A model generated the notes under the pieces. That model ran no database searches, was not told the origin of the DNA, and saw only the letters and a program-made list of their open reading frames with translations. A stretch of 64,000 nt of DNA. It comes from Strigops habroptila. Lineage: Eukaryota > Chordata > Aves > Psittaciformes > Psittacidae. The stretch is from the NCBI RefSeq assembly GCF_004027225.2, contig NC_044291.2, positions 9,966,707 to 10,030,706 of the forward strand, read 5' to 3'. Below, piece after piece: positions 27,501 to 56,094 of this stretch. Position 1 is the first letter of the stretch; every line of letters starts with the position of its first letter. The position numbers were made by a program, and so were the translations under genes.

Positions 27501-30500
27501 TCGTGCAGTGACATGAGGAGCTCTGCCCGTAGTGTGCAGTAATGAATATTCCTTGTGCGGAGGAAGAGGGTTCTCAGAAACTGCAATACCATGTCATAGA
27601 GCTTCACATTCTTCCCAATCATCTGGGTCAGCTTCTGAACCACCTAAACAAAGCAGAAAAAACGTGCACTCAGTACCAAGAGATGCTGTTATTTCATGCA
27701 CGCACAATGTGAATTCATTCTTTTACATGATTTATTGAGACTGAACCATCTGCACTGAAAGGAGTTCCTGGAAAGGAACTATTTATACCAAGATTTCCAA
27801 GAGCATTTGTTCAAGAGATGTTCACCAAATCTTTCATAGCCATAATGAAATAGAGAATGTCCAGAAAAGGTTCTCTTCCCAAAGGAAATTGAAGCATTTG
27901 TAGAATAAGGTTCTCAGTTATGTGAAAGAACCAGTGCCTGTTACTGATCAATCACAGAAACTAAATGAGCTTCTGAAAGCAAAACCAAACCCAAACCGAC
28001 CTCCCCATGTAACAGAGTGCTGCCCTCTCTGCAATTAAAGCTTTCTGCTGCCTTATCACTGCAATTCCTTAGCATTCTCCATAGCAAAGGTCCTTACAGA
28101 AACTCTGATGTTCCCATTTTGGAGCACAAACCGCCCAAGGTAAAGCCACACACCACACCTGAACCACTGTAATGACTCACTGCTGCCAAGAAGAGACCCA
28201 CTCCTCAACACCTCTGCCACTGTTCCCTCCCACATCAATCCTGCCTGTGTGATCCATCTTCTTACAATGGCTTTGGTGCCAGCTGATCTCTTTGAGCAGA
28301 TCAACTCACTCTCTTGGAAAACTACTCACTGGTTTTATTTGCTAGAGTTTCCATAGCAATTACTGAGCTGAATCAGCTCATGGAAGGGTGGCAATCACCA
28401 GAGCTACAGGTGCAGAGGAGCAGCCCCTGCCCTTCCTGTGGCTGAGTGTTGGATCAGCTCAGCCACCTCCTGTAATCCCATTCAAAAAGCAATCTCTCCG
28501 AATGCCAGCTTAGCTACAACTTGCCATGTCCCTTTCCATTTGTACAAAATAAATGAATAACTAAAGTTTTTGTTGGCCTATGTCCTCAAGAAAAGCAATT
28601 TAACATATTCAAACTGATTTGATAGAGCTCCTCAGCCTTTAGAGGTGTATTAAAGCCACACTGAGCAATACAGGAAATTTGGCCTTCCTATTTTTTTTAA
28701 GCACATAAACAGCTCAGAATATTAATGAGTTATTGCTCAGAACTGAGTAACTATAAACGTAATTCCTGCAGCTTTCATCAAGATATGTAGGAAGAATCAG
28801 CCTGGTATTTCTGGCAAATACTTTGTCTAGTTAAACAGCTTCAGCAGCAAAGTTGGGTGGGTGAAATGGACATTCTTATTTCCTGAGGTGGACTGAAAGC
28901 TGGTGAATTCCACTCACAAGCCTGTTGTCAGAGGTTTCCTTGTCCTTACCTCTCCTTGACGCCTTGTTTTGGGAGATGGACTGAAGAAATTGTGCAAGAC
29001 AGAAATGTCACTGCTGAAGAGAACGTTCTCCTTCTCCAGAATGTATTGCTTCAACAGTGGAGATACCTCATCACCAAACAGAGCCTGGTTGTCCTGCCAA
29101 ATCTGGCGCTTCACCTCCACTGCACATGCTTTATACAAGTCCTTATCAGCCATCACTAACTTCAGCTTCTTTTCAGGGACCTACAATTAACAGAGCAGTT
29201 ACCAAGCGCAGAGCAGCTCACCTGCCTGACTGTGCAAGGAGTAAGGAACTGACTGCAGAGGACATCTAAATCATAACCTGGTAATTTACACAAGGATGCA
29301 ATTTAACAACAGGCAGTATGAGACTCATCTTTTGCCTCACATACCCCTGTAAGCCAGTCCTCAGACACTTAAATTCTTCAACAACAAAGTGACACCCCAA
29401 GCTTTCCTTACTTCTTTCAAAGAGGACAAAAGACTTCCTTTAAACCTCTGATGCTGAGATCTGGGATGATGTTTCAGTAACTTACAAAAGTTCTAATAGC
29501 TGTTTTGAAGCCATTACCTTAAGTACAATATGATGCTCTTAATAAGGGTACTCCATGACACTTTTGTTTCACAGATCTGAATCTCACTCCTGTCTACTTC
29601 TAGTTGCAGTCTTCAATTCTTAACTTCCAGCTGTCACAGATTTTTAAAACAGCTGTGGAAAACTTCACCTATCAGTGAACTTGACAACTTTCAGGAAGCC
29701 GCATATATTGAATAAAACAGGGAAATAGCCTCATCTGACTATGAAAATGTAAAATGCTTTTTAAATTACTCTAAGTTACCAGATACAAGAATGTAGTAAA
29801 TCTTCAGTCAGTTTCTAACACTGAATGACAAACTTGCATTTGTCTGCAGATGGAGCACACAGCCCACTGGCAGCACAGCTGAGAGAAGCCGCACAACGGA
29901 GATGGTTTTACCTTGGGCAAGTGCTTCATGACACACATTACCACAGGCTGGATGGAAGGCATCTTGACCAAGGAAAAGCTCTTCTCTAGGAGATCTTCCA
30001 GCTTCTTGTATCTGAAAAGACATAACAGCAAGAGACTAAGCACCAAATAACAGTATAAAGCACTAAAGTGGCTCATCTCAAAGCCACCAGAACGTGACCC
30101 CCGAGGAACCCAGCCCTTGCAGACGCCACTCGTCCACTGTAACTAGTTTTCACACAGAATCCCCAGCTCAATCCAAACAACCAGCAAGACTTAACAAACC
30201 TCTCCTCGACTTTCCCTTCCAAGGCGATGGCAGAGACCCTCTCCAGCAGCTTCTCCCTCAGCTCATCGAAAACCGACTGGTGGAACTCCAGCCGGGGGGT
30301 GCCGTGCAGGTCCAGGAAGGGCAGCGCCGACTGCAGGGAGGGCAGCAGCACCCCGTTCTCTGTCTGCCAACACAAACACCGCGCAGCGGTGGAGGAAGCC
30401 CATGAGAAAGGATAAACCCCACAAAGCAGAGCCCGCCTCGGGCCCTCCCGCTCTCCCACCTCCCCGCAGCGCCGGCCCCGCCGCGCGGGCATCTCGTCCC

Positions 30501-30609
30501 GCCCCACCTGGAACTGCTCGATGGCCTTCAGCGGCTCGGTGCAGTTGGTGAGCGTCTCCTTCAGGTCCTCGCCGTTGGCCACCCCCAGCTCCTGCAGCCC
30601 CGCGTACAT
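18530..30609 (-). CDS. NELFB: negative elongation factor subunit B, complete, 13 exons
   Basis: NELF-B (also COBRA1) is a nuclear subunit of the four-protein NELF complex, which with DSIF holds RNA polymerase II at promoter-proximal pause sites. Coding exons from 5' to 3': 30508-30609, 30200-30363, 29912-30011, 28950-29180, 27458-27643, 25495-25607, 24767-24869, 23741-23836, 22254-22396, 21167-21273, 20094-20235, 19199-19307 and 18530-18667. All junctions are GT/AG and phases agree, giving 577 codons plus stop (human protein 580). The start MYAGLQELGVANGEDLKETL matches the human N-terminus. Other strongly conserved stretches include VKRQIWQDNQALFGDEVSPL, LHNFFSPSPKTRRQGE, LYDMVLQFLRTLFLRTRN and FGDIFLHLLTGNL. 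The Pro-rich C-terminal tail (ELPLPTVPTPASR) is shorter and more divergent. In exon 9 the donor gtacgt, used in phase 2, keeps the conserved TKFLQE. Two CR1 copies sit in introns. No disabling change was seen. Confidence 0.97.
18727..18999 (+). repeat. CR1 LINE 3' fragment in the last NELFB intron
   Basis: Sense CR1 tail between NELFB exons 12 and 13, antisense to the host gene. It starts gcgataggacaaggggtgat and ends ctattctatgattctatg. It carries small differences (a gap in the 'cctggcagtg' block; ggatgatcttaaggtc), marking a different and probably older subfamily than the other copies. Confidence 0.88.
19651..19669. repeat. short GCA trinucleotide repeat in a NELFB intron
   Basis: About five to six consecutive gca units in the intron between exons 12 and 11, followed 5 bp later by gctgct. 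Confidence 0.7.
21571..21645. repeat. AT-rich, partly palindromic tract in a NELFB intron
   Basis: Between exons 10 and 9: almost pure A/T with repeated attatat/atataat units (for example atattataattatatattat), able to fold into hairpins. Low-complexity sequence. Confidence 0.75.
25697..26201 (+). repeat. CR1 LINE 3' fragment in a NELFB intron
   Basis: Sense CR1 copy starting near gggaccacctacacaggagg and ending gggattttatga, antisense to NELFB. It lies less than 100 bp upstream (in gene direction) of exon 6, the closest approach of a repeat to an exon in this gene. Confidence 0.9.
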
Positions 30610-30960
30610 GGCGGCTGCCGGGCCCGCGGGGCCCGCTCCCCGCCGCACCGCGCTCCGACCCACCGCGGGTCCCCCAGCGGAGCGCGGTCCGGCGCTGCGC
30701 CCCGCCCCGCGGAACACGCTCCGGCACACAAGGGTTCCGCCACATAAAGGCTCCGCCGCTGCTGCTACTGATGGGTACCCGCGCCCCCAGCCGGCACCGG
30801 GGAGCCCCAAGGGACGCTGCTCCGGCAGCAGCATTAGGGCAGCGCGGTCGGGGTTCCAGCGGGGCGAGGGGAATCCCTCCCGGCGGGGCAGCCGCAACTT
30901 CTGGCTGGTCCCTAGCAGACAGCGATGAAAAGGGGAAACGCAACCAAAAAGCCTCGCAAA
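30420..30960. promoter_or_regulatory. CpG-rich promoter and first-exon region of NELFB
   Basis: Dense CpG and G/C sequence surrounds the NELFB start codon (30,607-30,609) and extends about 350 bp upstream, in sharp contrast with the AT-rich introns. No TATA box is evident at the expected distance, as is usual for a housekeeping CpG-island promoter. Long open frames on both strands here are by-products of GC richness. Confidence 0.75.
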
Positions 30961-33169
30961 GGAGAAGTGGCCTTTCCCCGTTCATGGTCTGAGCTTTGCA
31001 GGCTCGTACTTTCAGAATAGCTGGCGCAGAGCGGGGAAATAAATCTTAACGTGCCCTTCACAAGGGCTGCAGCCAGGCGACAGGATTGTATAAAGCTGCG
31101 TCAGTCCAACCCATCGCAGAAACCCCTTTGGCACCTTCCCACAGTTAATATAACTATCTTGGCAAAATCTAATGGATTTAGAGCCACCCCAAACCTTTTG
31201 AAGGTTGGGCTGCTGTTGACAGACCCCTGTGAACCCCGATATCCAGGCAGGCGAATGGATGCTCTCCACTATTCCCAGTCATGAGCTGCTACAATGCCCT
31301 TCGGTCCCACATTTCCCCTCTCCATGTCCCAGCTGCCAAAGCAGCCCTGCATGGTTTGAGCTGCACGCGGGTGGGTTCTAAAGGAGCAAAGCAGGACTTG
31401 CCAGACCACAGCATCATCTGACAGCTCTTTGATAGAACCCTTAGCTTCCAATGATATATCATGATATTGGCATAAACTACCATGACAAGCCCATGGGCAA
31501 GAGCAATCAGCCAACCACTTCACACATCTCACGTGCAGCATTCCTTCCAGGCAGGAGGATGCCTGGGGCACCATTTCATTTCCAACACTGCAGCAAGATG
31601 AGCCACTGCACAAATCCTTCCCACCACAGCACTTGAAAGCCTGCCTGTCCTCATGGGCAGACAGGAGAGCAGGAGCATGAGGACTGTCAGCACTCTGGAG
31701 ATTTAATCCCAGCCCCCTTTATAAAGCAGAGCATTGCCAGCCCAAGTGTAGGCAAAACAAAGAATCTCAGATTGGTTTGTGTTGGAAGGGACCTTAAAGC
31801 TCATCCAGTTCCAACCCCCTGCCATGGGCAGGGACACCTTCCACTAGAGCAGGTTGCTCCAAGCCCCTGTCTCCAACCTGGCCTTGAACACTGCCAGGGA
31901 TGGGGCAGCCACAGCTTCTCCGGGCACCCTGTGCCAGCGCCTCAGCACCCTCATCATCAAAAAAGCCTTCCTTATGTGCAATCTAAACCTATCCTCTTTC
32001 AGTTTAAGCCCATTGCCCCTTGTCCTGTCACAACAGGACATCTGCAGATGCATTCTAGTTGCTGACCAGCAAAATCAGAACTGGAGCCTAAAGTCTGCAG
32101 GAAGAGGAGGAATTCTGCCACTTTGCTTAAAACAACTCTAAGATGGAAAAGTGCATCTCCAAATAACCCTGAGAGGCCAAGAAGGTGTCATTCCTTTAGT
32201 TCTGCAGACAGAGGCGTGGCTGGTGAACTGCTCTGCTGGGGGCAAGGTGGTCTTGCCAACAAATGGTCCAGCTCACACACACAAAAGCTTTTCTTTAAGG
32301 AGTTGCACTTTTATTCCTAGACCCAGTCCCTGGGAACCAGATGGGACAGCCTGAAAGGAGCCCATCTCCTGGGAACAGCACCTTTTTCTCCAGGAATTCT
32401 GGTTTTGGGGACGTGTCTCTGTGGCACCAGAAAGGAGAAAGCAGGCACATGCTTTGTAAAGACTGGGGGTTGGTTATCTTTCATGGGGAGGCTGAGGAAG
32501 GGGTGTACAGACACCTATGCTGACACTGACCTTCTGGGGGCAAGAGATCCAAGCAGTCCCTGCTGTCTCACATCCACAGCAACGACCAAACCAGTCAGAG
32601 CGTCCTGTAGTGTAAACTCAAATGTGCAGGGGTTTTCCTGCCCCAGGTGCCACCTGATATGAGGCAGGAGCAGCCTGCAGGAACACTGCTCTGCCCCAAC
32701 CCAGTGCACACGTGCTTGTGGAGAAGCACTCCAGGTTCACCCTGGAGCCTTCAGATCTAGAGTAAACCCAGCAACGAGGAGTTTCCCCACGTCTAATTTT
32801 GTCAGCCAGCACTGCCAGGAGCAGAATACCAAACGCATGAGTTCTGCCTGCTTTCTGCTCATCACACAGCTGAGTTAACCCCACAGGTCTGTTTAGCTCA
32901 ACCCTGTTGCCTGGGGCAGTTTCGAGGTTGCACTGATGCCTTTGCACTGGAACAGGCACGAAGCCATCATTGTATTTACTGTGTGGAGGGATCGAAGGAG
33001 AACTCCTTGAGTCATCGCTCCCTGTGGTCCCTGTGGCTTGGGGCTGGGCTGAACCCAGAGCCTGGCCCCGGCTCCGCCTTTCTCTTCTTTTAGAGGTTGT
33101 AGAGGCAGCCGCTGTCAGTTCACTGCTCCACTCTTCCTCTTTTGCCTTTCTGAAAGGAGAAAGCTCTTC
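30961..33169. other. intergenic region between NELFB and the NTPDase gene
   Basis: The two genes diverge, with 2.6 kb between their start codons. Besides one CR1 copy I see no coding exon. The upstream part of the NTPDase transcript (its 5' UTR) probably lies within the last few hundred bases. Confidence 0.5.
31766..32042 (-). repeat. CR1 LINE 3' fragment
   Basis: Antisense CR1 tail beginning cagattggtttgtgttggaa and ending near gccccttgtcctgtcacaac. It contains a diverged segment (atcatcaaaaaagccttcct) where other copies have the gggaagagcttctgcc block. Confidence 0.88.
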
Positions 33170-36100
33170 ATGTCTTGGCGTGAACTGCTTCCCCCCTGGC
33201 TGGTGATTGTAGCGGGACTGACGGGCATCGTGCTGCTCTGTGTCTCCACTAAAGATGTGCCCATCACCCCTGTCAGGACCAAGGTAAGAGCATCCTCCTG
33301 CTCAAGGGGTGGCCAAGCTGGGGTCGAGTGGATCAATAAGCAGAAGACCTTCTCCTTGCCTATGTGGCTGCTTCTTAAGGAGAACCTGCTGTTTCCTTGT
33401 GCAAGCTGGGCATTTAAATCGGTGTGTTTTGTTGCCTTTTACATTCATTGCACTACTGAGTTATTTACTAGCCTGAAACAACAAACTGAGGAGGGAGTAG
33501 AACAAGACTACAAGGACAGGTTGGCATCCTTCAACATGCTGTAGCTTTTCAAAGTGAAAACAAGCCAACCCCTTTGGCAGGACAGGGAAATACACCCTGG
33601 ATGTGGTCCATGGGTCACGTACCCCAGAATGGCAAGAAATCAGTGGAGTCAGGGAAGGGAAGAGCTAGGTCACTCTTGAAAGTCAGTAGGAATCTGGCCC
33701 TGAACTGCTGCTCCTGTCTTACATACATATATATGATATATATATATATATCTTCCATGTCTTCTCCTCTTCTGTCCTCTCTTGATTTTAACCAAAGGGC
33801 CAACCAGTTCCACATGGAAGGCTGAGATCTGCCTGGTGACCAGGGGGTTAATGCCCATCCGCTCTGCCTCTTGATAAACTCACTGCTGAGGTGAGAGCAG
33901 TGGCACGCTATGGTTGAATCAAACAGAAGTAGGTTAACCTGTGTGATTAGAGACACTACCCCTCCTCCACACTCCTCTGAAACAAAACTGGATTTAAAAC
34001 AAAAACCCCCAAACCCTTATTGCTGCCTGCTCTGTCCTTCCCTGGTGCTGAGCTGGGGCAGGAATGCCGTGACCCTTCCTCCTCCCTTGTGCTCCCAGCA
34101 GCCTCTCCCTTTGTGAAGGAGGAAGAACTCCAGGTTCCTCTGCCAACACCACCCGTTCCTTCCTCTTCTGCAGCAGCCGACGTGTCCCTGTGAGCAATAG
34201 GAGCTGTCACTCCTGCGGGCAGACACCAGCAGGCTCAGGCAGGGAGCTCCATCCTCCTTCCGCATTTCTGCTCCAGCTCCAGTCCCAGGCACCGTGCCTG
34301 GTGCAGCTGGGTCTCCCAGGAGGACAGAGGCAGCCAGCTTGGCTCTGAGGCTGCTGCCAGACTCTGTCTTGTGCTGAAACCCTTCTGATGGTGTTAACAT
34401 CAACCTCTGGGCGGGTTTCTCCTCCCACTCAGTCACAGCTACAACCATCTCTGTGCAAGATAACAGCTCAGACCATGTACCCCCCAGATCTCACGAGTTT
34501 CTTCCCCATCTTTGTAGATATCTCAGTTTGTGGCCATGTAATAGTGGGGGGAGAGGAGGAAATCCTAGGCTAGCACAAGGGCTATTTTGAGCATGCTGCA
34601 GGGTACACCAATGGCCTCTCATTTCCCAACCCTCATGTATAAGGGGCAGCTCAGCAAAGCTTGGTCAGCAGCAAACAGACCAGATGCTGGGCTGCGAAGA
34701 GACTAAGCAAGCCCTTGGCCTCCCTGCTAGGTATCAGGATGACTGTCAGTGGACAAGGTGTTGAGAAATCCCATGCTCGTTGCTGCTGTTTCTGACCAGA
34801 TGTTATCTTGGTTTCTGTGGGGCTGCTGCACTGGGCAGTGTCTGTGCTGGATGGTCCCAGCGTGTTGCAGCTCCTGCCCATGTCACACCATCTCCACAGT
34901 GGGTCATCAAGGAGATGTGGGATTCAGGTTCCTCAGAAGTAGGAGCAAGCCGCAGCTCTCTGATTCCTGCACAAAAGCCTTAGCAATCCAATCCAGCAGC
35001 TCCTTGAGTCCCAGAATTAGTCAAAAGCCTGGATGGTGCCATCTCCCACTGGTTTAGGACCTGTTTTTCCTGAGCTCCAGGTGGAAGCCCTCTGCCTGGT
35101 TTCAGGAACAGCTACACAGCATGCCACTGTAGGTCTGAAGTATTTCTGGGTGTCTCCACTCCTGCTGCTCCTCATGTATATTCAGAAATGCAGATGGTTC
35201 CCTGCAAACCCACATCATATTCTGGCTTCACCCTTTGCATGTAAAAAGCTAACTCAGACACTGCAGTGCAGGCCCACGGGTTACCCAGAACACCAATGCA
35301 GTGCTGAGTAACCCTACAATAACAAAGCAGCATGCATTGAGTGGTGTTGATCTGGAATGTTTTTGGGGTTTTCCAGTATGGCATTGTTTTGGATGCTGGC
35401 CCATCCCGCACCATCCTGTTCATCTACCAGTGGACCACCAGCAAGGCAAATAAGACCGGGGTGATCAGGGAATGTAGTTCCTGTCCTGGGCAAGGTAAGG
35501 TGCCTGATTTATGCTCAGTGGGCTGTGGGACTGGTGTGGCATGGATGGAAACAGAGATTTGTGCATGGACCATTGCTGCAATGTCCTTGGCTCCTGTATC
35601 GTCAGGCTGTATGCTGAAATAGTGGTGATAGTAAAGCACAAGCTGCTTATTTTCAACATGGGTCTTCTCAACACAGCAGGAGGTGACAGTTTCCTTGGCC
35701 TGCTGCAGGCAGGGAAGCACATAGACGGGATGGGGCTCATCCTCATGTCCACGTGCACCAGTGGCACAGCCAAGGTTGCTGAGCTTCTCACCTAGTGAAC
35801 AGCAACAGAGACAAATCTGGCTTCAGAGTGACTCCTGGTGTTTTCTGCTTCCTCCTGACTGTACGCTGGGCTCCAGTGTGTGTAGCTGTGTAGCTCCAGA
35901 GCAACAGAGGTGCAAAGACTCCAGCCCCTTACGTGGGGTTTGATAGCACAAGCATGAGTTCAGCTTGGGTTTAGGTGTCACACTTTGGAGAATACTGGGG
36001 TCTTCCTCACTAGTTTGAATCACTTTGGCCGTGCCAACACCAGCTGAAAGGGTTTCATGTGTTAATGCTTGGGGTTTTCCTTCCCTATCTCTCAATCTTG

Positions 36101-39100
36101 CTTTGATGTTGAAGCCTGATTATAGCAGGATGCTGGGAAGCCCTGAACGCTCAGTAGCAGTGTGCTGCGGGAGGGCAGCTGCAGAACAAGCAGGGAAGAG
36201 GGTTTGTGCCCTCGCAGACTGTAAGGAATACAAACCATGTACAGAAGATGCAATAAGGGCTTCCTGAAACCTTGTACATGTCCTTTGCCTGCTGCCACCT
36301 TCACCAGATGGGTTAAAAACAGCAACTGTAAGCTCAGTGCAGCAGTTTCCAGCCGCAGCAACGAGAGGTGCAGGCAGGTCTCTCATCCACATGTGAGAAT
36401 CCATCCATAGCAGAGCAGTCACAGCCTTGGAGTAGCTGTGCAGCTCAGCCCTATACAGGGCCCAGGAGAGCAAAGCACATGGTGAGGGTGGCACGCAGCC
36501 AGGAAGATGATGGGGCAGAGGATGGGGAAGTGAAGCTTTTTCTGGGTAGTAGTTCAAATCCAGCATGTAAGACCCCATTGAATCTTACTGGAAAGATGAG
36601 GCAGGGCTTGCACACAGTTTCTGTCTGCACAGTAACAGCTTCCTCTAAAGCAGAGGTGTCTTGTGGTGGCTCAGAAGCCACCTTTGTCAGCACAAGAGGA
36701 AGTGACTGTAGGAGAGAGGTGACACATCAGCCTCAGCTCTGTCTGCATGGCAGCGTGTCCTTTCCTTATCTTTTATAGCAGCTACAGCCACATTTCTTCC
36801 TCTGTGGCCTGAGACAGCCCCCATTGCTGAGGTGCCCTGTGGCTGATACATGGTCATTTGCAGGATGTCCCAGCAGCAGAGCTAGGGTTCTCAGTATGAT
36901 TTGGGATTTACATGCACAAGTGTTTTGCTCCCAGTACCATATTTCAGCAAGATTGTTACCTGGAGGAACTCCATTCCACCTGTGACAGGTCCTGACTTTA
37001 ACCATGCCCCAGGATAGCAACTTCCTGGGTAACGGCTCTCACACTTCTCCCATACTGTTCTTTCCCCGGTCCTCAGGTCTGGGAGTCTCCAACTACGCAG
37101 ACTCTCCTCAGAAAGCAGGGGAGAGCCTGCAGCAATGTTTGACCTGGGCCCAGCAAGAGATCCCAGCAGAGCAGCACAGCCAAACCCCGCTCTACTTGGG
37201 AGCAACCGCCAGCATGAGGCCGCAGAAGTGAGTGAATGTTGCAAACCCACCCCCAGCCATCAGCACGTGCCATGAGATCAGTCTGTGACTGCATCTCACC
37301 CTGCCTGCTCTGCAGTGATCCATCCCTAGCCTGCTAGTCAGGTAAACCTTCCCCAGGTCCCAATGTACTCGAGGGGACTGTGGCATGGCTGTGTGTCCGC
37401 AGTGTCCCCCCCCAAGTAGCAATGAGGATGACAGTCTTGCTTCTGCTACCAGTCTGTGTTGTGTCCTTCACAATTAGTGCTTGGGAGAACACCCAGCAGT
37501 CTGGAAATTGAAGTGCTTTCAGTTTATGTGACAATCCCCATGGGCTTGCAGGGGTGCTTCTCGTCAGCAGGTTGGAAATGATAATGGGAGGATTCACCTT
37601 ATAATACACCATTTTGTGGACCCTGTTCTCAGTTACCTCATTACTGGGACCTTTGTCTCCTTTAGACACCGGGGAAAAGCAGGGCCTGGAGGGGACCAGT
37701 TCAGTGGGGCAAGACCACAGGACTCCCTCAGTGGCAGAGGGTACAAAACTCCCACATTCTTGAATGGTGGCACAACTGCCCAAATCATGCCTCTGCTGTT
37801 CTTGCCCCCAGTATTGGAAGAGGGAAGCAGCAGGAGTGGGATTGTCATTGTGTCTCTGTGCTACTACCCAAAGCAGGAGCACAGCAGAAGCCCTGCAGCT
37901 ATGCCTCCACTGCAGGCTGCTCCTGCAGGGTCCTGCAACAACGAATGTACTTTGTTTTTCTTTTCTGTTTAGCCTCACCCATCCCATCTTCTCTGATGGT
38001 CTCCTTGCAGCCCTGAAGTCATCTCCCTTCAGCTTTCAGGGGGCACAAATCCTGTCCAGTCCAGAAAAGGAAGCATTCAATTGGGTTGCTGTTAACTATG
38101 TCCTGGAGAACTTCTTCAAGGTAAAGGACAATCCTGCCTGGGGAGTACAGAACTGAGCAACTCCCATTCGCAAACAGCCACAGAGGCATGCGGAGGGATC
38201 ATTAAAACCCTGCACTTTAAACAATGCTTAACCACAGCTTGCACTGCCTTTCAGAGGATGCGGGTTATATCCAACACCAGCTGGTTGGGGGACATAGTAT
38301 AAGATGGTTGTAACTAGGATGAAGGACCAAAGCTCTAATATATCTAATATATCATGGACACATTCATGCAGTTGCCCTAACAGATGTGAGGCTTTCTGGA
38401 CACCACATCCAGATGCTCCCATAGATGACCTTATGTAGCCTGGCCCTGGGGTGTCAATAACAGCTCCACTGCTCTGAGTCCCTGCAGCTCTAGTTACAGC
38501 ACCACTGTGAAACTGGCATTGCTGCTGTCTGTGGGATTGCCACTGGAGACCAGCAGTCCCACAGGATATCCTATGGACAGTGGACAGAGAAGCAGAGTCT
38601 TCTGCTGCCAAAGCAAAAGCCTCTCATTGAGATGCCAGTAGGAGTATAGCTGGGTGTCCCCAGCACATGGGGCTGCTCTGTATTGAGAAGGCACTTGCTA
38701 AACAAAAAGAATACACTTAAGTTTCCTTGCTTTCCCCTCCAGCCAAAGCCTCTGAGCTCTTCTCATGAACTCAAAGGGCAAGAGAAAGGCAGGTTAGGCC
38801 AAGTGATTCCACATTAGCAAAGTGAAAGGCAGTTCTGATAGCCAGCAGCAAGCATGCACTGGTTAGGGAATTGCTAGCAAATTCCAGCACAGCCTCCCCC
38901 AGCACAGCCAGGACAGAGAACTTCCACCCATGTAAACCTTCCTGCCTGCATTGCTAACTTCAGCATCACCAAAATCAGTTCTGCAAGACTGCAGGAGATG
39001 AAACATCAGGGTTCATTTGACAGCAGGACCACTTTAGCACCAAGGCAGCACTTGAAGCCCATCCCTTCCCATCTGGAAACCTCCCTCCCGCCCCCTCCCA

Positions 39101-42100
39101 CCACCCTCTCCTCTCTCCCCTGCTCCTACCTGCCAAGACTACTGCTTGAAGAGCAGGATGGGGAGCCCTGTTTGCTCTCGCTGGCCGTGGGAGCTCTCAA
39201 TGCAGATGGCAGTGCTTGTTCAATGGCTCCTCTGTTCCCTGCCAAGCCACCAGCTCAGCATCCTTATACCCTGTGGGCAAAACAAGAAGTTGAGCTATAC
39301 AGCACCAAACAGCTTTCTCTCCCTGTGCACTAATGCTTGCACCTGTGACCCAGATGTAGAAGTCTTAAGAACTGACCTCTCTGGTTCTTTTGGGTCAGTA
39401 CGACTGGCGAGGACAGTTGGTCCCCTCTGGGAAGGGGATGGCAGGAGTCCTGTCAGTGGGAGGAACCTCAGCACAGCTCACTGCCAGCGTGGAAGCGGAC
39501 AACCAGGCACCTAAAGAGGGAGTGAAGCTGCAGCTGTATGGACAGACACACAGTGTGTACACTCGCCACTGCCCCTGCCACGGCACGGCCCAGCTCCGCA
39601 GCAGGCTGCTCGCTCTGCTCATTCAAGTGAGTATCTCCAGAGGCATTTGCAATGTTCCTGGCTACAACAGCACTAAATGAGAGTTGCACAAGGTGTAGCT
39701 TCTAACAGGCAAAACATCAATCACTGTCTTTAACAGAGGGCACTTGCATGTATTTAAAAAAGCCCAGTGCATTGGTAGAACATACTTTCTGTGGCCGAAT
39801 CAATGCCCTCCAAGGAGACACACAGGCAACCGTTCAAGAGTTTCTTACTTGCAGGCTCTATTCGGCTTCTTTCTTAACACACAGGAGCACAAAATTGCTC
39901 TCCATAAGATCACCTTCAGGGTGAAGAACACAGCACCCAGGAACCAACCGGGACCTTCCATTTGGGGTATTTCCTTTAGCAACTTCAACCCTGAAGCATC
40001 TTTAAAAGAGCACTATTTAATGTTGAAAACATGCAGGTCTTTTGGCTCTTCCAAGCTGTATTGTACTTGGCAGGAGGCAGGATCTGATGCAAACTCAGGA
40101 ATCACTTTAGTCTCCACCAAACCTGATTTTATATGTCAGAAATAAACTACTCACTGCCCATCCACTTGCCTCCCTAAAACCACACCTCTTAAATGAGACC
40201 TGAATGTCCCACATGGAGACCCACTTCATCATAGTTATATTGGGAATTCCTAGAGATCACAGTCCGGATGGGGTTGGATGGACCAGTTCCAACCCCCTGC
40301 CACGGGCAGGGACACCTTCCACTAGAGCAGGTTGCTCCAAGCCCCTGTGTCCAACCTGGCCTTGAACACTGCCAGGGATGGGGCAGCCACAGCTTCTCTG
40401 GGCACCCTGTGCCAGCACCTCAGCACCCTCACAGGGAAGAGCTTCTGCCTAAGAGCTCATCTCAATCTCACCTCTGGCAGGTTAAAGCCATTCCTCTTTA
40501 TTTCCTGATAAGAAACACTGGTTCTTGAGAGGTTGTGCCATCTGGAAGGCAGACCTGAACATCCTCTTTCTTTCAACTAGAAAGAGTGCAGGACCCATTG
40601 AAACTGTATTTCTGGTCTCAGGGAGAGCAGGTAGGGCTGGGACTCCTCAGCCTCGCACAGCAGGTCCAGTCATTGCAGCTCTGCCCTGAACCCTGTGGGA
40701 GCTGGGAGCCTGCTGCATTGGTCTGGGCCTTTCAGTTGAGTGGCTGAGACAAGGTTTGCAAACCTTTTGCAGCCTGTTTGCTCACTACAATATCGTGGTG
40801 CCAGAGGAAAACCGTTCTTCACTGCGTAACATTTTGTCTTCATTTGTGAAGCCCTGGGATGCCAAACCTGTTCTCTTGCTGCCTCTGTCCTTGTTTTATT
40901 CTCTCTAGGATCAGAGGGGGGCTAAAACTGTGTCTAATCCCTGCTGGCCCCTCTCCTACTCCCAGGAAGTGCAGTGGCAATCTGTGCACGCTGGGCCCTG
41001 TGCTGTCAGCAAGGACACACCGGAGATCTCTGGTCCTGAGGTCTTCAATGTCACCGGCTCCAGCGATCCCACCGCCTGCATGAGACTTGTGCAGAGCCTG
41101 CTCAACTCTTCCTCCTCCTGCAGCTTCTTCAAGCATTCCCTCAGCAGTGTCTTCAAGCCCCTCCGGACCAGGTTTCTGGTGGGTTCTCATCTACACTGGG
41201 GTAGGCAGCTGGTGTGGAGAACCCATGCCATGGGACCAGTTTGATCATTAATAAGTACAGTGGGAATAGTCACGCTGTGCCCCTGCTAGCCGGGAGAGCC
41301 AGCGCTCTGGGTAATGCTGTACACATGCTCACCTGCCCTCTCCCCATCACTGACACACAGCTGGTCAAACATGGACCACAGGCTTCCCACCAGTGGCTGT
41401 GACAGGGCTTTGCTCATCCACGCCTCAGCAACGCCTGCTGCGAGACAAACTGTGGGGCTCCACAGAGTCAGCAGCGATAGGACAACCAGGAGTCTCCTGC
41501 TGAGCAGGTCTGCTCACATGAAGTCGGTGGTGAAGCTAAAGATCTTCTGCCACTTCCTCAGCGAACATCTGGGCATGTTCCACCACAAGCATACTTATAT
41601 CTGAGACCCCAGATCTAGTGTCCAAAGTCATTGGGTTGTTAATCCAGGACCAGCTCAAGATCCAAGGAAAAACTGAATGCACTTCAGAGGGAGGAATTAG
41701 ACATTTCCCCAGCTCCCTGCTCCTGAGAGCCTCCCATGGACACAGTGCAAGGAGCATAAGGACTAGTCTACTTATCCAGGCAGGGCATGCAAGCTAGAAA
41801 CAGCCCTCTTTCCATCTCCGGAGAGTAACAGATCTGCTTGTCTTCCTTGCACACATCAGAAGCACCACAACCACCAACACAGGCACATGGAGAGGGCACC
41901 CTGGCCATGCACCCCACACCTACTGCCACTTTCTTTTCTATAGGCACTGAATGTGATGTGAGGATGCAGAGTGCAGTGTGACCTGATGACTATTTCTGTT
42001 GCTGTTGTAGGTGATTTCTGAGGCCATGGACTTCATGAAAGAAACTGTGCCCTCTCCTGACTTGGGTCAGGCGGTCAACAGGCTTTGTGGGATGTCCGTC

Positions 42101-44457
42101 AAAGAGGTAACTGGAATAACTCAGCGTGCAGAGAGAGTGGGAAGCAAGGAACAGTCTGTTGCAAAAGCCCATGGGGCTCAGACTGACAGAGCCCTAATTG
42201 ACTGGCTCCCTCAAGGGAAAACCTGGATTTTCCTGTTTGCTGGTTTATGGTTGATATTCACTTTGAGGAAACAGGCTCCCCTTATTTTCTTCCTCTCAAA
42301 TCCCAGCTGCTGGTAACACTTGGACTTAATTAAATGAAAAGCCACAAGTACCTTTTGCTGCATATTAAGGAGTAAACAAGAAGGCTGTCTACTCACTCCT
42401 GTACATCACCCTGCTCTTCCTGTTACCCTTCTCTCCTTAAGCACAAGGAACATCCACTCAGACTCCAGGGGCTTTCTCATTTCACCTGGGCCCATGGAGA
42501 CCAAGCCAGGGAGAAGCTGTAAGTTCTTTCCCTCAGTTGGTGGCTTAGAGGTCACACTCATTTGCACCTACACTGACCAGCACCCACAGTAACATTCAAA
42601 CTGGACAATCTCTACAGGGTTTGCTAATGGAGTAGCAAAGCCCATAGGCAGCTCCCCAAAGCTTTCTCTTCTGGATAGAGGACACAGATCTTGTTCATGT
42701 TGCTGTTGAGAGAAAGGCTGCAGCATTAGCTCAACCTAATTAGAGAGCAGAGGATCATACCAAGCAGTTCACCCGCAAGGCAACTGCAGGAGACCTGCCT
42801 GGCAGCCCTGCTGCTCTTGAACTGCCTGGGCTTTAATAAGATGGGAACAAAGGCACACAGAGATGACACCAGTTCCCAGACCACATTCCAGAAGCTGCAG
42901 GAAACATGGTTTCAGTCTGCACAACACACAGCCCTCCTCCAGTCCCACAGTTGGTCCCAGAGCAGGAAAGGAGAGGTTACAGCAGGACTGAAATTCTGCT
43001 ACTGAATATTTACTTCCTTTATTTTTTCCCCATCTTCTTTTGGAAATGACACCAGCTGGTGAAGGAGTCCCAGACAAGCCTGGATACACTTGTGGATTAC
43101 TGCGTTGTGTCTGCCTTCATCTTCCACCTCAGTACAAAGGGATACACCTTTGACTTCAACGGGTCTGTTTGGACTTCATTCCAGAAGCAGGTCAGTTACC
43201 TACAGCATGGTACTTCCAGTTGCAAGGGAGGGGTGGTTTCAGCAAGGCCAACCTGACCCCACTCCTGCAAGCCTGAACCAGCCATTATTGCAAAATAAAT
43301 TCATAATTGTGCTAAGCAAGAAAGACAGTGACAGAAAGCTAGAGATTACACTGTCCCCTCTGAAAAATACATGGGTCAAAACCTGGAGCATTATCATCTT
43401 TCAGAGTCTATACCCAACAGGGAAGCATGGCTCGAGTGCCACTTTATGCTAAGGATAAGCTGCTGATAATATTTCCTGAGCCAGAAGATGCTGCCCTACC
43501 TCTTTGCAATCACCTTTATACTAGTGAGGCTCACAAGGTGTGGAAATGCTTCAGGATCTGGAGCCCCTAAGGAAAGGAGGATTGGATTCAGGTCCTCCCC
43601 TTCACGAAAGGAAAGCAAGCCTATTCCCAGACCCTGTCACAACCCACCAGCAAAGCAGAGTCCCAGTGAGCAGGGCTGCAGCAGTGACAGCAGTTCAGCC
43701 AGCCATGTGGCAATCATCACACTAGGGCAAGGTAAGGAGGTAGGACTGGGATCCAACCAGGGAGCCCAATCTGAGAAGCCTATAACATAGGTCTGAGGTG
43801 CAACCAGGCAACAAGGCCAGAGACAAAACTAAAGGACCTGATGCCCACCTGGGAAAACCATATAGCAAGAAGAAGAAGGAACAGCACACACCTACAGCCC
43901 AGCTCAGGAAAGAGGGGGCTGCCCAGGCCAGAGCTTAAATGCTGCTCCCAGGCCTATGGGCAGAGGTGGGGGGTGGAAGTTCCAGGTGAGGCTGGCGGGG
44001 GCAATGAAAGCCTATTAGTGCACTAATAAAAGTGGGATTGCTCCTCATTTCAAGTCTAATCCTTGGATCATAAAATGGTTTGGGTTGGAAAGAACCTTAA
44101 GATCATCTAGTTCCAACCTCCAGTCTGTCTCAAATAAAGCATACAAGGCCTTAGGCCTGCGCACAGAAATGCAGCTGGGTTCAGACTGGCTCCTCCTCTG
44201 ACCTCTCCTCCTTTTTCTTTCAATAGATGGGTGATAGATCCTCTGGCTGGACTCTGGGGTACCTGCTGGCTCTGACCAACACTGTCCCGCAGGACAGCCC
44301 GAGCTTCCTCAAGGGGATTGAGCCAGGGGTCTGGTCTTTGCTCCTCATCCTCTTTGTCGTGCTGCTCACTGGCTCTTTCATGCGCATCTCGTACCGAGTG
44401 ATGGTGAAGGAGAACAGCTTCAGTAACAGGAACAGCAGTGTCTTTGATGACAACTGA
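33170..44457 (+). CDS. ENTPD2-like: ecto-NTPDase (ENTPD2-type) paralogue, nine intact exons, catalytic residues lost
   Basis: Family members are cell-surface enzymes that hydrolyse extracellular nucleoside tri- and diphosphates, held by a membrane helix at each end. Coding exons: 33170-33283, 35377-35494, 37077-37227, 37973-38120, 39399-39626, 40909-41178, 42011-42106, 43056-43190, 44227-44457. All have GT/AG junctions and matching phases, giving 496 codons and a stop, the normal family length. Helix 1 is about residues 10-26 (LVIVAGLTGIVLLCV) and helix 2 about 452-470. The N-terminus, YGIVLDAG and the VLENFFKY region match NTPDase2 better than NTPDase8. The active site is altered. ACR1 reads DAGPSRT (family DAGSSHT). 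ACR2 reads GATASMRPQ (family GATAGMRLL). ACR3 reads SSPEKEAFNW, with Lys160 at the catalytic Glu (rat NTPDase2 E165). ACR4 reads SVGGTSAQ, with Ser196 at the essential Asp (rat D201). Nucleotide hydrolysis is therefore unlikely (inference). The cytoplasmic tail of about 25 residues is rich in Ser and Asn. Confidence 0.85.
33719..33752. repeat. TA dinucleotide repeat
   Basis: Interrupted (at)n/(ta)n tract in the first NTPDase intron (tatatatatatatatc); a likely polymorphic microsatellite. Confidence 0.8.
40262..40500 (-). repeat. CR1 LINE 3' fragment in an NTPDase intron
   Basis: Antisense CR1 tail between exons 5 and 6, from gatggggttggatggaccag to the antisense of the ggaatggctttaacctgcca block. 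Part of the extreme 3' end (the gggaccttaaagctcatc segment) is missing. Confidence 0.88.
44069..44145 (-). repeat. short CR1 3' end remnant
   Basis: ggatcataaaatggtttggg…ccttaagatcatctagttcc is the antisense CR1 terminus, cut off after about 75 bp. It lies 80 bp before the last NTPDase exon. Confidence 0.75.
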
Positions 44458-45252: not shown

Positions 45253-47136
45253 TTGAATTAACACATTTAATTTCACATCTGCTAAAACAAGGTGCAGGCT
45301 GGGCTGAGGTCACTGCTTTGTTCATTTGCACTGAACTGCTTAACTCTGAAAGGGAAGTAGCTCATCTAACACTGTCCCTCAGACAAGAGTACACCCAAGA
45401 AGAGAAGCTTTCCTAATTGACTTTCATATTAGTCTGTGACCAGAGTTACTTTATAATCCAACACTCCAGATTCCTCGGGGCCTTGGCAGTCATTCCAAGA
45501 TGCTCTGCTTGCCTAAGAGCTGAGGTGTTATACAAACTCTGTGTTATTGTGAAGAAAGGGATCGATTCAGACAAACACTGTCCTTGGACTAGAGCACTTA
45601 CAGTTCACTTCTCTGCTTCAAAGCAACACACAGGCTGTTAAAAGCCCAAGGGACAAGTGTCTCCAGCTCATTTCAGACCACTTGAAAGAGAAATTTAAAT
45701 GCTCACAGATAATAATGATGTGCCTTGCAGGATTTTTAAAGCTACCATGGAACCCAAATCCTTTCAAATCTAATTAATAATTACTTGTGCTCCCAACTCA
45801 TATACATGGACACCCCCATAATATTGGGGTATTCATAAATTTTCAGGCCATTAATGAAGGTTTGGAACCTGTCAGTCAAGTTTGGAGGGGTGTGGAAACA
45901 GATTTAAATGAGCTTCACATTCATTTCTTGGAGTTGCAAGTTAGATATTTTTAATTATATCATGTTATTAAAGATGTTTTAATAGACTGTCTGTGTTATT
46001 CTTGGCAAGAGATCACAGCAGGGGGTTTATTGTGAATACAGAGTGCCCCAGTGAGGAGGATGGGGGGTGCTGGGTCTGCCTCTGTTTACTCCGGAGCTGT
46101 TTTGCTGTGTACTTTCGGGGTACACAATGAGACCCCCTGAGGGCACTTTCTTCCCAGTGGCAAGCAGGCAGAAAATGACTTCAGATAATCTGGCTGCTGG
46201 TATTTAGTTGATGAAAGACATGTCTACATCTTTGATGTGTTCTTTGCTCAAACCATCTAAAGAAGGTAGGAGGGATTCAGGCAAGCCTGCATAGAAAAAC
46301 AGAAGAGGTTATCAGGCAGTCAGTGACATCAGGGAAATTCCTGAGACTTCATTTGCCCCACATCTGGAAATGCAATCCTTAGCAGAGCTTTGGCTCTGTG
46401 ACCTGTCAGCCCACAGGAGAACTGTGGGATTCCTGGTGGAGATTTGCAACCTGCCCAAGAAGAGTGCTACCACTGTCAGGAATGGAAATAAGCCAGTGAG
46501 ATGCCAGGAACCCCAGGACTGGGTGTTCTGGCCTGCTCAGTCATTACAACTTCTTGACTTTGAATACTAGATCACAGGCTCCATTGGCTGCAACTTCCCT
46601 GAGCCCTTGTTTAGAAGCTTTAGGACTTCCCTGTGGATAATAAGTGAGCAATTAGACAAGAAGCTCAGCATGTCCTCCAACACTTTAGTTTTGCCTGTAC
46701 TGAGCACTGTACCAAGCTCTAATGAGCGATGGCATGTACAGAAGCCTAACTGGGCCCATTAAATCCATGACACCTGAGCCACCATTTGACATTGAGTGCA
46801 CTGCAAAGACAACCCCCAACAACCTGATTTCAAGCAGATCTTAAACTCTTGACCTAAAAGCTGCTGTTCTCACCAAAGGCACAGTGAGACGTTTCAATGG
46901 CTGCAGTTCTTGCGTTGGTTGTTCACACACCACATGCGGCAGCTCTGCTCTCTCCTTTCCCATCCTTCCTTCCAGATACCACCACCACTGCCCCCTCCTG
47001 CAGGCAGGGGCAGGACTTCTCATTAATGACTGTGCTGCCCCCGCCAAGCTGCAGCCCCCAGCATGAGGGCTCCCAGTGCACTGGGCTTGGGATGGGCTGT
47101 CTTGATGGTGCGTATCATTCTCTTTCTATCTGGCAG

Positions 47137-54094: not shown

Positions 54095-56094
<2,000 letters not shown>

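Follow-up and report, generated by a model that had tools for sequence, protein, structure and literature searches.

A probable long-retained, non-catalytic relative of ENTPD2 in Strigops habroptila

Results

The gene and its exons

We analysed a 64,000-nucleotide stretch of the Strigops habroptila genome (C16:9966707-10030706, hereafter the window, whose own numbering is used below unless a contig is named). On its forward strand, at 33170-44457, lies a gene related to ENTPD2, the gene for NTPDase2. An initial annotation, made from the sequence alone, had read it as an intact NTPDase gene with lost chemistry and a new role. Its nine exons splice to 1,491 nt, a length divisible by three, and encode 496 amino acids plus a stop; there are no internal stops, and 8/8 introns are bounded by GT/AG, which agrees with the exon count, frame and splice sites given in that annotation.

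All exons and codons of the gene are on the + strand. Exon 1 (33170..33283) contains the start codon and a first hydrophobic, putatively membrane-spanning stretch. The apyrase conserved regions (ACRs) follow, with ACR1 (DAGPSRT) in exon 2 (35377..35494, 118 nt), ACR2 in exon 3 (37077..37227, 151 nt), which ends on SMRPQ, and ACR3 in exon 4 (37973..38120, 148 nt), which is 12 nt below the 160 nt found in 5/5 modelled paralogues. Exon 5 (39399..39626, 228 nt) carries ACR4 together with residues 240/241, which are Thr/Ala where NTPDase2 has R245/D246. Exon 6 (40909..41178, 270 nt) contains the codon of His329, exon 7 (42011..42106, 96 nt) is 24 nt below its counterpart in the same bird's ENTPD2, and exon 8 (43056..43190, 135 nt) contains the codon of Thr386. 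ACR5 (GWTLGYLLALTN), the second hydrophobic stretch, a cytoplasmic tail and the stop are in exon 9 (44227..44457). The most hydrophobic 19-residue windows begin at residues 6-9 and 450-458, that is, at both protein ends, so that hydropathy predicts two membrane helices flanking an ectodomain, as in the cell-surface NTPDase types 1, 2, 3 and 8. The tail (44395-44457, ending NSSVFDDN) is longer than that of the same bird's ENTPD2 (ending RRSKSGTI) and may possibly contain a new motif.

Family membership and relatives

The window protein matches Pfam PF01150 (GDA1/CD39) with 186.7 bits (E=7.5e-55; cut-off 24.9) and is an E-NTPDase by descent. Among solved structures rat NTPDase2 was the top match (322.8 bits, 42.1% identity over 418 aligned residues), with rat NTPDase1 at 215.7 bits (34.3% over 399). 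Rat NTPDase1 and NTPDase2 queries found no relative in genome and viral contig collections, which hold no vertebrates by design.

We then searched the bird's genome (1.149 Gb, 89 contigs) for GDA1/CD39 loci and found, by our grouping, ten besides the window gene. Five were modelled from exon 2 on (L009-L013), and another, L015, is incomplete and was examined by eye; L014, L016 and matches on C10 and C4 were left out of the models. Since paralogue exon joins were chosen by a score demanding an open frame, only exon lengths and phases count as independent evidence there. The gene taken as true ENTPD2 (L009) lies on the same contig, 1.8 Mb off, and is 63.0% identical to rat NTPDase2; the window protein shares 39.3% identity with it. 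Three ENTPD8-type genes (names assigned in this analysis) are found on the same contig, 1.2 Mb from the window gene. With the window protein as query, its own nine exons were recovered at 84-97%, below 100% because the matches extend past exon ends, and no second copy was found (among the matches listed, 21 lay beyond its own exons and none exceeded 57%). At the DNA level, a same-strand exon match with ENTPD2 was not found; the comparison gave one weak 123-nt match (70.7%, E 1.5e-6) involving exon 4 and 13 repeat hits.

In the tree, the window gene has a long branch and attaches next to, but not within, the pair formed by rat and bird ENTPD2 (support 72.8/74), and the ENTPD8-type genes group with ENTPD1, apart from it. 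Taken at face value, the duplication that gave rise to the window gene predates the bird/mammal split, though the long branch may mislead. A beta-tubulin coding exon with tubulin beta-4B (TUBB4B) as best match is located at 55012..56094 (+). On chicken chromosome 17, TUBB4B and ENTPD2L flank the non-coding RNA lnc-LTR5B (PMC8667585). The genes near NOXA1, which itself neighbours ENTPD8, are described as keeping a highly conserved order in human and chicken (PMC2121648). Because TUBB4B adjoins and the NOXA1/ENTPD8 order is conserved, the window gene is most likely ENTPD2L rather than ENTPD8. It lies beside TUBB4B as chicken ENTPD2L does, and through this shared neighbour it very likely represents the same locus. 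Chicken genes named ENTPD8L1 and ENTPD8L2 also appear in the literature (PMC13356744 and PMC11584914).

Catalytic and nucleotide-contacting residues are lost

For comparison we used seven motif-intact enzymes, five of this bird and two of rat, which we regard as active on the strength of their motifs and of what is known about the rat enzymes. Glu165 (rat NTPDase2 numbering) is the catalytic, general base of NTPDases. It is Glu in 7/7 comparators and Lys160 in the window gene (codon 38067..38069; this and the next two positions were obtained by counting along the sequence). Asp201 of the ACR4 DXG motif is replaced by Ser196 (39453..39455). In ACR1, DAGSSHT has become DAGPSRT, with Pro47 (35401..35403) in place of rat Ser48 (Ser in 7/7 comparators), and in ACR2 GMRLL reads SMRPQ. 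The ACR1 Asp (rat D45) is retained as D44. All these substitutions had been listed in the initial annotation, as had the retained Asp and both helices, and the alignment to rat NTPDase2 bears them out. In each of the two DXG motifs it is the Asp that faces the metal (PMC12489842). Judged by alignment, the window gene lacks the full set of an active enzyme, namely the ACR3 Glu and the DXG Asp of both ACR1 and ACR4. E165 and D201 are retained in the same genome's ENTPD2, ENTPD1 and the three ENTPD8-type genes, which belong to the same family as the window gene but differ from it in this respect. The His to Arg change in ACR1 (H50R) is weak evidence taken alone, because human NTPDase3 naturally carries Arg there (PMC12489842); this bird's ENTPD3 exon likewise reads DAGSSRT.

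The losses go further than had been listed. In human NTPDase2 models, R245, D246, Y350 and R394 hold the ribose and base (PMC12489842). In the window gene, Thr replaces R245 and R394 (Thr386 for the latter, codon 43086-43088 by alignment), Ala replaces D246, and Y350 falls in a gap. All four are retained in the same bird's ENTPD2 and are variable in ENTPD1 and the ENTPD8-type genes. A 9-nt in-frame alignment gap in exon 7 removes F348-Y350, including the base-stacking Tyr350. We considered a shifted or cryptic donor at exon 6 and rejected it, as six paralogues (L009-L013, L015) share the site: their exon 6 stops one residue past NF, QF or DF, and exon 7 opens with AFSAF or similar. The donor is therefore ancestral, and Tyr350 was lost within exon 7.

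Cys328, which we take to pair normally with Cys323, is replaced by His329 (codon 41134-41136, by alignment). E-NTPases possess ten conserved cysteines (PMC516237); nine of these align in the window protein, which by this count falls short of the complete set of cell-surface NTPDases, and its cysteines 71 and 235 lie outside the ten aligned positions.

Within ACR limits drawn by us, 16/47 invariant positions are lost (S48P, H50R, G124S, L127P, L128Q, G162S, E165K, G166E, L176V, A199V, D201S, T207A, I209L, M441L, N443A and I448V). Overall the window gene holds 74/111 positions invariant across the seven comparators; in leave-one-out comparisons each comparator holds 111 of the 114-123 positions common to the other six. 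Since its ACRs (31/47) are kept no better than the remainder (43/64), the extra constraint on catalysis appears to be gone.

The reading frame has been maintained

Exons 2-8 measure 118, 151, 148, 228, 270, 96 and 135 nt in the window gene, and 118, 151, 160, 228, 267, 120 and 135 nt in the same bird's ENTPD2. Wherever the two genes differ, they do so by a multiple of three, and the intron phases therefore agree. A branch codon model of five same-genome genes (432 codons) gave an omega (nonsynonymous to synonymous rate ratio) of 0.20 for the window branch and 0.04 elsewhere, rough values for reasons given in the Discussion, with likelihood-ratio statistics of 8.1 against equal omegas and 11.5 against omega 1. 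When the latter test was repeated on 439 codons, the statistic was 11.58, which was matched in 0/100 parametric bootstraps under omega=1 (largest value 4.76, lowest omega estimate 0.36). Over the ACR codons (69, with slightly narrower limits) omega was 0.095 for the window gene with a background of 0.010, versus 0.217 and 0.046 for the other codons. GC content at third codon positions is 0.69 versus 0.50 for intron GC, and the observed/expected CpG ratio is 0.30 versus 0.12.

On a neutral clock, 16/47 ACR losses need about 0.21 substitutions per site (0.087 in the smallest run), and among neutral-drift runs reaching that number of losses 0/400 remained stop-free. The catalytic losses therefore most likely accrued while the frame was maintained. 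Stops, frameshifts, broken splice sites and an omega near 1 were all absent from the gene model. On this sequence evidence the window gene is not an old decaying pseudogene, which upholds the earlier argument against decay as far as old decay is concerned.

Surroundings and further paralogues

Downstream of the window-gene stop, no AATAAA occurs on the + strand up to 47271; the first + strand ATTAAA is at 45967. Upstream, an open reading frame with N-terminal parts of NELFB was identified by homology at 30073..30981 (-). The interval 30001-32000 has a GC content of 0.583, versus 0.43 in the 8 kb to its left, and lies at the NELFB 5' end, in opposite orientation to the window gene. One repeat is present at 13 places in the window, including 31755-31942 and 40283-40420, with 83.5-99.3% similarity to a copy that lies next to ENTPD2 (L009). 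From its appearance we take it to be a bird CR1-type fragment.

Among the ENTPD8-type genes, L012 reads FSW for FGW in ACR3, with the E165 and D201 positions intact. L011 and L012 (C16:11210500-11229500) are inverted relative to each other. Over 1.3 kb, covering exons 3 and 4 and the intervening intron, they are 97.9% identical, and they reach the same 97.9% across 292 bp at exon 6. The pattern suggests that the inverted copies have undergone gene conversion or arose by recent duplication.

Discussion

We consider it probable (roughly 0.78) that the window gene is an old ENTPD2 paralogue, likely ENTPD2L, whose product is non-catalytic and has been kept by selection for another job. Its product would have the NTPDase fold and be a cell-surface protein that crosses the membrane twice. 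Having lost the catalytic base, one of two metal-facing Asp and the base/ribose clamp, this protein would not hydrolyse nucleotides and probably does not bind them firmly. Selection for a non-catalytic job would have preserved the frame, the exon structure, both hydrophobic ends and nine of the ten conserved cysteines. The initial annotation thus stands as regards an intact gene with lost catalytic residues. Of the three roles it had proposed, nucleotide sensing is disfavoured and appears the least likely, because the residues by which NTPDase2 holds base and ribose are also gone; a decoy or dimer-partner role is possible.

Several observations weigh against this reading. The window gene evolves fast, with a branch length of 1.31 versus 0.35 for ENTPD2, and one conserved cysteine is missing. 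Residues D45, S49, T51, G203, G204, S206, Q208 and W436, phosphate-loop residues among them, are retained, and weak anion binding may therefore persist. Synonymous branch lengths reach 6-20 per codon between paralogues, and because synonymous sites are saturated and one branch is at the upper bound, the value of omega is rough. The test against omega=1 spans the entire window branch, including the time preceding catalytic loss, so that selection is demonstrated for the branch as a whole and not separately for the period after that loss. Outside the ACRs, the replacements are only slightly more conservative than chance would give (P=0.08, or 0.07 in the set that includes chicken sequences); in ACR3 and ACR4 they tend, if anything, to be milder than expected by chance (P=0.03 with either set). 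Finally, losses and constraint alike rest on one genome.

If the protein is non-catalytic and retained, what it does is less certain. Tentatively, the likeliest job would be a protein-protein role in the membrane, in which it joins or competes in oligomers of active NTPDases and tunes their activity or delivery. Surface NTPDases form oligomers that are required for full activity (PMC7954995), and a dead partner is therefore plausible. On an alternative that we regard as unlikely, though the strongest of those considered, it would be a surface protein, likewise without catalysis, that serves in adhesion or as a receptor in a role that has nothing to do with NTPDases, and its pocket may bind another anionic ligand. 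The retained fold family and hydrophobic ends, the altered pocket, the extra cysteines at 71 and 235 and the tail that exceeds that of ENTPD2 would suit such a role, but tail and cysteines are known from one species, and the ligand or partner is purely conjectural. This alternative shares the dead-but-retained character and differs only in the job, and its odds overlap with those of the explanation preferred here.

It is improbable that the gene died recently, with selection lasting to within the past few million years and drift since then too brief for a stop or frameshift to appear. The fast branch would fit, and under an assumed indel rate a gene that has drifted neutrally by 0.01-0.02 substitutions per site still has a 23-5% chance of keeping its frame clean. 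The ACR losses, however, call for some 0.21 neutral substitutions per site, and no run of that depth stayed open; the loss of catalysis therefore probably came well ahead of any recent decay that may have occurred. It is more improbable still that the protein is an enzyme or binds nucleotides by another arrangement. Seven of the residues named above (all except W436) are kept and Lys160 and Arg49 bring positive charge, but the general base is gone. Also missing are one metal-facing DXG Asp and the base and ribose contacts (PMC12489842).

With ENTPD2/NTPDase2 (rat 3CJ1 and 4BQZ; L009) the window gene shares the GDA1/CD39 fold family, the exon pattern and the hydrophobic ends, and differs in lacking the catalytic Glu, the ACR4 Asp, the base/ribose contacts and one Cys. 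Another NTPDase-family protein without detectable activity is mt-PCPH, an inactive form of ENTPD5 (PMC3829800). In contrast to the full-length germline paralogue described here, mt-PCPH is a truncated (PMC4090452), cancer-related form. Arabidopsis APYRASE 7 likewise belongs to the family; it has two membrane domains, plays an unusual role and does not complement a yeast apyrase mutant (PMC10824444). According to that paper it has all five conserved motifs, whereas those of the window gene are broken. In the open-licence literature listed, judged by titles and abstract starts, we found neither ENTPD2L or a bird NTPDase reported as inactive nor a natural full-length NTPDase pseudoenzyme, and the pairing of NTPDase with pseudoenzyme was absent among the matches listed. 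The locus is already named in chicken.

The name ENTPD2L alone would suggest an enzyme, and chicken is a possible start for expression, knockout and partner studies. A full-length germline NTPDase without catalysis and nucleotide contacts would offer a natural test of non-catalytic roles and oligomer control. Surface NTPDases determine the duration of extracellular ATP and ADP signalling. A rather doubtful proposition is that an NTPDase2-like pseudoenzyme has long been retained in birds, or in sauropsids, and serves the surface NTPDases as a regulatory subunit or as a dominant-negative partner. If this is true, extracellular ATP control in birds would have a layer that is absent in mammals.

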